The notes under the pieces: generated by a model
Told to the model about the DNA's origin: nothing
The model's database searches: none
What the model saw: only the letters and a program-made list of their open reading frames with translations
Source of the DNA: Allobosea sp.
GTDB taxonomy: Bacteria > Pseudomonadota > Alphaproteobacteria > Rhizobiales > Beijerinckiaceae
Direction: 5' to 3'
DNA length: 64,000 bases
NCBI RefSeq assembly: GCF_017308015.1
Contig: NZ_JAFKFW010000005.1
Location: 186,001-250,000, forward strand
Part shown: positions 6,310 through 31,584 of the stretch, in pieces
Position numbering within the stretch: position 1 is the stretch's first letter
How the letters are laid out: each line of letters begins with the position of its first letter
Made by a program: the position numbers and the translations under genes

Positions 6310-6335
6310 GGAACCAATCCGCCCTGACCACGGTT
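6310..6335 (+). promoter_or_regulatory. EcfG-like promoter (plus) for the microprotein operon
   Basis: GGAAC, 17 bases, GGTT (one mismatch to CGTT). It lies about 35 bases before the GTG of the 24-residue membrane protein and diverges from the minus-strand element at 6239-6263. Confidence 0.5.
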
Positions 6336-6454: not shown

Positions 6455-7324
6455 ATGTCCATGTCTGGAACAGACGTCGTCGTCGCCCCGGTCACCGTGA
6501 ACAAGGAGAACCACTCCTATGTGCAATGGGGACCGATCATCGGCGGCGCGGTGATCGCGACCGCCATCTCCACCATCATGACGGTCTTCGGCTCGGCGAT
6601 CGGCCTGTCGATGGTCTCCGCCGATTTCGAGAAGAGTTCGAGCGCGACCGCCCTGGCGATTGCCGGCGCCCTCTGGGCGCTATGGGTCATGGTGTCCGCG
6701 ACGGTGGCGGGAGGCTATCTCGCGGGGCGCATGCGCCAGCCGAGCTTCGACGCCAACGGAGAGGAGCGCAAGGTGCGCGACGCAACGCACGGCCTGCTCG
6801 TCTGGGCAACCGGAGCGCTCCTGATCACCATCGTCGCGACATCCTCGCTCTTCAGCGCGGCAAAGACGGCGGCCAGCGGTGTCGCCAGCGCGAGCTCTGG
6901 GGTAGCCTCGCTGGTTTCCCAGAACATCGATCCAATGGCGATGGCGCTCGACAACATCATGCGCGCCAACGGCCAGCAGCCGCCGACCACCCAGGAACGC
7001 GAGGAAGCCTCCCGGATCTTCGTCAGCGCCCTCGCGAATGGCAGGATCGAACAGGGTGATCGGGACTATCTCGCCTCGCGTCTGGCCGCCCGCTCCGGGA
7101 TCAGCGAGCAGGATGCGCAGAAGCGGATCGACGACGCCTATGCGCGGATTTCGCAGGCCAAGGAGACCGCCAAGCAAGCGGCCGAGCGTGCCCGCAAGAC
7201 CGCGGTACTGACGGCGTTCCTGACGGCCGCAGCACTGCTCGTTGGCGCCGCGGCGGCCTCGTGGGCCGCCACATTGGGCGGGGAACATCGGGACGAGAAC
7301 CTCCGGGTCGAACCGACCCTCTGA
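6455..7324 (+). CDS. Conserved inner-membrane protein
   Basis: A 289-residue membrane protein. Predicted membrane segments lie near residues 27-50, 65-88, 115-135 and 250-272, with a soluble middle section (about 155-245) rich in charged and Ala residues that looks helical. GPIIGGAVIATAISTIMTVF opens the first segment. The type is common in Hyphomicrobiales but has no assigned function. It follows the 24-residue membrane protein by nine bases, and a strong hairpin terminator lies 26 bases after its stop, so the two form a compact transcription unit. Confidence 0.8.
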   Translation: MSMSGTDVVVAPVTVNKENHSYVQWGPIIGGAVIATAISTIMTVFGSAIGLSMVSADFEKSSSATALAIAGALWALWVMVSATVAGGYLAGRMRQPSFDANGEERKVRDATHGLLVWATGALLITIVATSSLFSAAKTAASGVASASSGVASLVSQNIDPMAMALDNIMRANGQQPPTTQEREEASRIFVSALANGRIEQGDRDYLASRLAARSGISEQDAQKRIDDAYARISQAKETAKQAAERARKTAVLTAFLTAAALLVGAAAASWAATLGGEHRDENLRVEPTL

Positions 7325-29846: not shown

Positions 29847-29872
29847 TGGAACCGATCTCATCGATGGAACGT
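29847..29872 (+). promoter_or_regulatory. EcfG-type promoter with no gene downstream, drives ncRNA candidate
   Basis: Exact GGAAC-N17-CGTT on the plus strand. No ribosome site plus coding frame follows; instead three stem-loops and a terminator end 91 bases later. Confidence 0.6.
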
Positions 29873-29879
29873 TGAGCAG

Positions 29880-29963
29880 GCGGAATTCACGGTAGTGCTC
29901 GTCGCATCGGCGAGCAAAGGGCTGGAAGCCCACAAAACCCCGCCGGCAACCCGGCGGGGTTTT
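29880..29963 (+). ncRNA. Candidate stress-induced small RNA
   Basis: A predicted transcript of about 84 bases between an exact EcfG-type promoter and a strong rho-independent terminator. Three consecutive stem-loops are visible: TGCTCGTCG/CGGCGAGCA (29896-29916, one G-U pair), GGGCT-GGA-AGCCC (29919-29931) and the terminator AAAACCCCGCCGG/CCGGCGGGGTTTT. The end is shared with a minus-strand gene, so the terminator could serve only that gene; the promoter and the two extra hairpins argue otherwise. No target can be predicted by eye. Confidence 0.5.
29934..29963. terminator. Bidirectional rho-independent terminator
   Basis: Perfect 13-bp stem AAAACCCCGCCGG/CCGGCGGGGTTTT with loop CAAC. T-runs in both directions let it end the plus-strand RNA and the minus-strand gene at 29986-30225. 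Confidence 0.88.
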
Positions 29964-29985
29964 GTATTTGGCGCGTGTCCCTTGC

Positions 29986-30225
29986 CTAATCCCCGCACCG
30001 CGACAGTATCCTCCCGTCCGGCAAGGCGAAACGGCACTGATCTTCATAGTGAACCGGAGTTCCGTCCTCGAGGGTATATGAAGTCAATGGAGAGCCCGGC
30101 CAATCGCGCCAGACGACGACATGGTACAGCATGCCGTCTTCGTCCCGGCACCGCTCGGTGTAGAGCACGCGCTTGACGGGACTCGGACTTCGCGTCGGAC
30201 CAGGCTCCCTCCAGATTGCGACCAT
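29986..30225 (-). CDS. Small hypothetical protein
   Basis: A 79-residue soluble protein with beta-strand-like segments (VVWRDWPGSPLTSYTLEDGT, then HYEDQCRFALPDGRIL) and three cysteines. GAGGTG lies seven bases before the ATG. No family recognised. It is followed by a strong terminator and preceded by an EcfG-like promoter. Confidence 0.65.
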   Translation of the reverse strand: MVAIWREPGPTRSPSPVKRVLYTERCRDEDGMLYHVVVWRDWPGSPLTSYTLEDGTPVHYEDQCRFALPDGRILSRCGD

Positions 30226-31460: not shown

Positions 31461-31559
31461 GGGTCGGACCGGTCACGTCCGGAACGGCCCAATTCGTTCC
31501 CATCCGAAGACGGGCAGCGTTTGAGCAATTTCAGAGGTTTCCGGATCCCGACAGGTGGG

Positions 31560-31584
31560 AACGCCGGACTATTCCGCTTGTTCC
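31560..31584 (-). promoter_or_regulatory. Overlapping EcfG-type promoters in both directions
   Basis: Minus strand: exact GGAAC-N16-CGTT toward the small minus-strand genes. The same segment on the plus strand (31558-31582) reads GGAAC-N16-TGTT toward glgP. A further GGAACG-N8-CGTTCC palindrome is at 31481-31500, but its spacing does not fit a promoter. Confidence 0.6.

Follow-up and report, generated by a model that had tools for sequence, protein, structure and literature searches.

Among the sRNAs placed under general stress sigma factors, GsrN of Caulobacter is an RNA of ~100 nt whose transcription depends on an EcfG-type sigma factor; its 5′ region is structured, with a loop that pairs with the katG mRNA, and it ends in an intrinsic terminator (PMC5869019). 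The same paper describes the 5′ loop as cytosine-rich, places the gene typically near ecfG–nepR–phyR outside C. crescentus, gives BLASTn homologues limited to the Caulobacteraceae, and makes the case that sRNAs under EcfG control are widespread in the Alphaproteobacteria. In Sinorhizobium meliloti, RpoE2 is reported to activate seven sRNAs, their regulatory impact being stated as unknown in PMC6180224, where the listed RpoE2 promoters agree with the EcfG consensus used here. A search of the open-access literature found no work on sRNAs of Bosea or Allobosea.

The window analysed here, a whole stretch of 64 kb of Allobosea DNA, very probably contains an EcfG-started sRNA gene belonging to a Bosea family with three paralogous types and most likely acting in trans (Table 1). 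An earlier note on this DNA had claimed an exact EcfG-type promoter and a product of ~84 bases, and both claims stood: on sequence inspection, GGAAC at 29848–29852 and CGTT at 29870–29873 are separated by a spacer of 17 nt, and the predicted extent, from ~29880 to ~29964, is about 85 nt. The GGAAC...GTT-type consensus is taken here to denote promoters of EcfG, the general stress sigma factor, and ‘stress-induced’ is read from the promoter.

Table 1. Predicted features of the sRNA locus and its flanks (window coordinates)
Feature	Position	Strand	Remarks
EcfG-type promoter, GGAAC-N17-CGTT	29848–29873	+	Exact match
sRNA gene, type A, ~85 nt	29880–29964	+	Start inferred from promoter spacing, end from terminator
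Conserved 5′ segment, GCGGAATTCACGGTAG	29880–29895	+	Proposed pairing (seed) region
Hairpin P1, TGCTC ... GAGCA	29896–29916	+	Compensatory changes
Hairpin P2, GGGC-TGGAA-GCCC	29919–29931	+	Complementary, nearly invariant
Intrinsic terminator, ~15 bp	29932–29965	+	TTTT on 3′ side; folds
Convergent 79-aa gene	29986–30225	−	No Pfam match; could share sRNA terminator
Small ORF, 70 aa	29529–29741	−	No Pfam match; relatives at 3/14 loci given (tblastn)
ORF, 113 aa	29835–30176	+	Runs through sRNA; no Pfam match
ORF, 81 aa	29802–30047	−	Runs through sRNA

The 85-nt segment from ~29880 folds at −50.7 kcal/mol, compared with −30.1 ± 3.6 kcal/mol for shuffled sequences (z = −5.69; 0/200 shuffles equal), and the 53 nt without the terminator give z = −2.69 (4/200 equal). 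Both stem-loops of the earlier note can form, and its 13-bp terminator with T-runs is better described as a hairpin of ~15 bp with TTTT; the folding that it had called for supports a structured RNA, although the second hairpin is absent from the minimum-energy fold of the window copy, where the P2 sequence instead pairs with the 5′ segment and 7 of the first 16 nt are unpaired. A terminator scan of the window detects the hairpin at 29932–29965, and since it returns 2 sites in total, against 2.1 in shuffles, the terminator alone is no evidence.

BLASTN of the locus against 150 related genomes recovered long homologues in the own genus, one of them a second own-genome copy on contig C8 (81%), while the best non-genus match among those listed covered 32 bases of rplL (E 1.2e-5). 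R1, a covariance model trained on 11 copies, of types A and B only, found divergent type C copies, including a third own-genome copy on C21; seven type C matches, scoring 35–55 bits in R1, had a correctly placed GGAAC, accompanied by TGTT in six and by CATT in genome G051, the promoter lying outside this model and its successor alike. That successor, R2, built from 20 copies, yields 21 members at 64.7–88.9 bits in 14 of 67 genomes of the genus, the next match scoring 36.0 bits; 20 of these members went into R2 and so match by construction, the remaining one (G029) being independent at 64.7 bits. The window copy scores 93.2 bits in R1 and 85.5 bits in R2, being itself included in both. Types A, B and C number nine, four and eight copies, respectively, and the own genome has all three, on contigs C55, C8 (type B) and C21 (type C). 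Gene contexts of type A differ, except between the window and G012; type C adjoins two tRNA genes at both loci scanned, near pcm and tolC-like genes, and G020 has a type B and a type C copy separated by 3 kb.

Type C was also sought at 30 loci around the neighbouring pcm gene, two of them too short to reach the place; a strict promoter with the RNA occurred at four (G044, G012, G060 and G000), all among the 21 members, and the promoter in G051 was non-strict. Two places with a GGAAC..GTT..GGAWTT arrangement (L037:9578 and L092:1501) were rejected as unrelated to the family. Below the R2 score gap lie 31 genus matches, of which 12 were inspected and 11 had no EcfG promoter. At G021:C15:229113–229198 (29 bits), a type C place carries a weakened promoter and terminator, and from its sequence looks like a decayed type C copy.

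Beyond the genus, samples of 298 family and 397 order genomes were searched, genus members included, with filters that lose weak matches. Outside the genus, the family-level search gave 14 weak matches of at most 35.4 bits, six of them inspected and none with an EcfG promoter, and the order-level search gave two, at 38.7 and 37 bits, both without one; an exact-pattern contig scan returned 11 stretches, five of them titled as Bosea, Boseaceae, Rhizobiales or Hyphomicrobiales and the six from other organisms all lacking the promoter, and plasmid records gave no match to a 136-base query. No convincing member was thus found outside the genus among the sampled genomes and, as far as sampled, the family is limited to part of Bosea; NCBI taxonomy equates Bosea thiooxidans with Allobosea thiooxidans, in the Alloboseaceae. 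At gathering scores, Rfam 15 gave no sRNA match across the window and the seven further member loci scanned, only tRNAs, near type C. The best weak Rfam match, rnk_pseudo (RF01772), likewise a structured leader with a GC-rich hairpin, covers 29896–29968 with 27.7 bits, where the gathering score is 55, and was taken as chance. To judge from its sequence, the family looks previously uncatalogued and its locus a real gene of ~85 bases.

Conservation falls on the promoter and the RNA body. A GGAAC-N16/17-NGTT promoter ends 6–7 nt ahead of the RNA in 14 of the 21 members; G035A2 has GGAGC (a −35 mismatch), G051C has GGAAC with CATT, and no EcfG promoter was recognisable in G005A and in all four type B copies, whose upstream region is largely conserved without a recognised promoter. 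Upstream of type B, a GC-rich inverted repeat, GAAGCGAGCCGGC ... GCCGGCTCGCTTC (seen at locus L036), is conserved in three of the four genomes, and all four share a GCGAGCCGCGGA block. Among type A copies (five of nine), column identity drops from 86% in the RNA to 68% in the promoter and 55–57% in the flanks; the figures for type C copies (seven of eight) are 90% for the RNA, 85% for the promoter, 67% upstream and 77% downstream. The first 20 positions, covering the 5′ segment, reach 94% in the five of nine type A copies with unrelated flanks; the window–G012 pair is uninformative because nearly everything is conserved between them.

The earlier note had staked its reading on conservation of the stems outside the terminator, and this was found: across the 21-member family, P1 changes from U–A to C–G at two positions, pair 1 being U–A in 12 members, U–G in six, C–G in two and unpaired in one, and pair 4 U–A in 11, C–G in nine and U–G in one, while pair 5 fails in four. 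The covariation search that it had proposed thus bore out P1, with its compensatory changes, and left P2, complementary in 19–20 of 21 members and nearly invariant, without covariation support. In the terminator, pair 5 is G–C in 12 members, A–U in eight and unpaired in one; these pair counts derive from hand-anchored pairing, which leans towards structure. A MAFFT alignment with its own RNAalifold structure (A1) gave both-sided changes in five of the 13 terminator pairs, and P1, its helix 1, has 94.3% of cells paired. Overall, in tests that are inflated by related rows and by a structure derived from the same alignment, 95.4% of cells pair (91.4% in shuffles, 34–53% in slid versions) and both-sided changes occur in seven pairs against 2.1 in shuffles, 0/500 reaching seven; further pair types, one of five measures, were not unusual (15 versus 13.4; 68/500 shuffles equal).

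In minimum-energy folds, P1 (at least four of five outer pairs) forms in 18 of 21 members, missing in G035A2, G005A and G029C, and P2 forms in 15. The six without P2 comprise the window copy, G012A and G066A, in which its sequence pairs with the 5′ segment, and G035A2, G005A and G029C, which fold otherwise. Five members leave the first 16 nt entirely unpaired, and the other 16 pair them in part. Conservation of stems and promoter thus bore out the arrangement claimed by the earlier note; that the RNA is regulatory is read from its architecture. What the sequences themselves show is the promoter, the structure, the existence of a family and the retention of both promoter and stems within it.

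The genomic setting is that of a general-stress gene island, with Ku, LigD, HWE kinases, glycogen enzymes and many small ORFs. Strict EcfG sites number 14 in the window against 0.72 expected, and 117 genome-wide against 83 for a reversed control, which marks the window as EcfG-rich. The sRNA locus is flanked on one side by a PAS-GAF-HWE histidine kinase with a receiver domain and a methylpurine glycosylase, and on the other by glycogen phosphorylase; more distant are Ku, LigD, a second HWE kinase, glycogen branching and debranching type enzymes, 4-alpha-glucanotransferase and other alpha-amylase-family enzymes. Genes of the Ku, LigD, HWE kinase and glycogen-enzyme type are common in general stress regulons. 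Scanning the window and four other stretches of the same genome for an EcfG promoter followed by a strong terminator returned three places, namely the window sRNA, its sister of type C and a weak hairpin of 8 bp preceding an ORF of 289 aa.

Further EcfG-like arrangements were observed in passing. At 6310–6335 on the plus strand, an EcfG-like GGAAC..GGTT is followed by a terminator-like hairpin of 8 bp and, at 6455, by the ORF of 289 aa, an arrangement that might be the leader of a stress gene with an attenuator. At 31558–31584, between glgP (+) and an ORF of 90 aa (−), two EcfG-like promoters overlap on opposite strands. A second dense cluster of EcfG sites occurs in the own genome at C8:70000–99500 (loci L212 and L036), which also contains the type B sRNA. 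On the minus strand of locus L174 (~140–300; G020, near pcm), an EcfG promoter is followed ~60 nt on by a terminator-like hairpin and T-run; this element is not a member of the Bosea family and is a possible unrelated stress sRNA.

The hairpin could be merely the terminator of the convergent minus-strand gene at 30225–29986, with the promoter match arising by chance. Its A-rich 5′ side possibly makes the terminator usable on the minus strand too, so that it could serve both strands; the reverse strand scores weakly in homology searches, and the 79-aa gene is real, tblastn matches at 9 of the 14 sRNA loci given identifying its product as a conserved small protein. Most of these relatives do not adjoin the RNA, however: the gene lies directly beside it only in the window and the near-identical G012 copy, a relative in G020 is convergent at ~290 nt, elsewhere the distance is ~1 kb or more, and five of the 14 loci gave no tblastn match (G047A, G035A and G066A2 among them), whereas conservation of the 5′ segment, P1 and promoter does not depend on where the 79-aa gene lies. 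Such an origin of the hairpin is therefore extremely improbable, and the 79-aa protein, recurring within a few kb of sRNA copies, is by its sequence a candidate stress-island protein. That the RNA is a short mRNA, or a leader, for a small protein is also very unlikely. In the window copy, a stop-free frame within the RNA begins with a GTG at RNA position 16, and the claim that the locus has no coding frame did not hold literally, given that ORFs of 113 aa and 81 aa cross it. A common reading frame sought in 20 members (G029C left out) was not found, start codons and frames varying and early stops occurring in several, and the plus-strand ORF has no Pfam match. The 5′ segment does resemble the EFTVVL codons of ribosomal protein L7/L12 in other genera, whose rplL genes match it at E 1.5e-5 and 6e-4 (loci L011 and L016), with a similar sense match in what a motif suggests is a fliN gene; but in the own genus none of ten rplL loci, that of the own genome among them, matches the segment. 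With frames not kept either, a ribosomal-protein origin was rejected, and the rplL/fliN resemblance is judged a coincidence of codon use.

Of another kind is the possibility that the RNA sequesters a protein rather than pairing with mRNA, for example through a GGA in the P2 loop in the manner of CsrA-binding RNAs. Such a loop is carried by most type A and B members, in which P2 is nearly invariant, and in most folds the 5′ segment is not free of pairing; against this, several type C loops lack GGA (e.g. TCAAG, TTGAAA and TTCGAA) and each RNA offers just one GGA loop site, which leaves sequestration unlikely. The preferred reading remains that of a trans-acting sRNA family, for which we infer transcription, EcfG dependence, use of Hfq and a seed role for the 5′ segment. 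The EcfG general stress sigma factor would start transcription at a predicted ~29880 and the terminator would stop it at ~29965; the RNA would accumulate under stress, shielded by its hairpins and terminator and probably with Hfq (hfq is present in the own genome), and the conserved 5′ segment, by analogy with the 5′ loop of GsrN, would pair with target mRNAs, altering their translation or stability in trans. Within the sRNA-family reading, pairing through the 5′ segment has, on the present analysis, roughly an even chance of being correct, and in the window copy it would need rearrangement, because only 5 of 21 members have all of the first 16 nt unpaired.

Candidate targets were sought as complements of the 5′ segment, allowing two mismatches, in six type A genomes; 13 places were found, of which seven are the sRNA itself and six lie elsewhere, against four for a reversed control. 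One near-complement, in G049 (locus L208, around 1483), lies at the very beginning of a small gene encoding a protein that starts with MGRKFIDCREFPSE; 25/500 shuffles pair with the RNA equally well, the MGRKFIDCREFPSE motif was absent from the other loci examined, and the sequence match makes this small gene a weak lead as a target.

More tentatively, the types may be sibling sRNAs under split control, with A and C under EcfG and B carrying the same body under another promoter, the three sharing targets and type A constituting a mobile cassette. Were this so, the same set of targets would respond both to stress and to a second signal, and type A would move between stress-gene islands as a promoter–RNA–terminator cassette.

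Set against the described systems, the Bosea RNA has the features of an EcfG-dependent sRNA: a promoter at transcription-start distance (in the window copy and 13 others, type B excepted) and a non-coding, structured body with its own terminator. A new family of a known kind is thus indicated, because EcfG-regulated sRNAs are argued, in PMC5869019, to be prevalent in the Alphaproteobacteria. By description, not sequence, it can be likened to the RpoE2-activated sRNAs of S. meliloti, being non-coding and assigned to an EcfG-type sigma factor as those are in PMC6180224. With GsrN it shares an EcfG-type promoter, structure and its own terminator; unlike GsrN, it shows by eye no C-rich unpaired 5′ loop in the folds of 21 members, its 5′ segment being GGAATTCACGGTAG or variants. 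Nor does its position correspond to the one given for GsrN, the Bosea sRNAs lying on contigs C55, C8 and C21 and the only nepR match found at G000:C23:86932, with no promoter-plus-terminator pair in C23:79000–92000, and up to three paralogues occur per genome, again unlike GsrN. These features of loop and position, rather than sequence, set the two apart and suggest that the Bosea family is unrelated to GsrN. The analysis adds a further EcfG sRNA family, with defined promoter, structure and paralogues in Bosea, exact coordinates and a reusable family model; if it is unrelated to the others, general-stress sRNAs would have arisen more than once in the Alphaproteobacteria.
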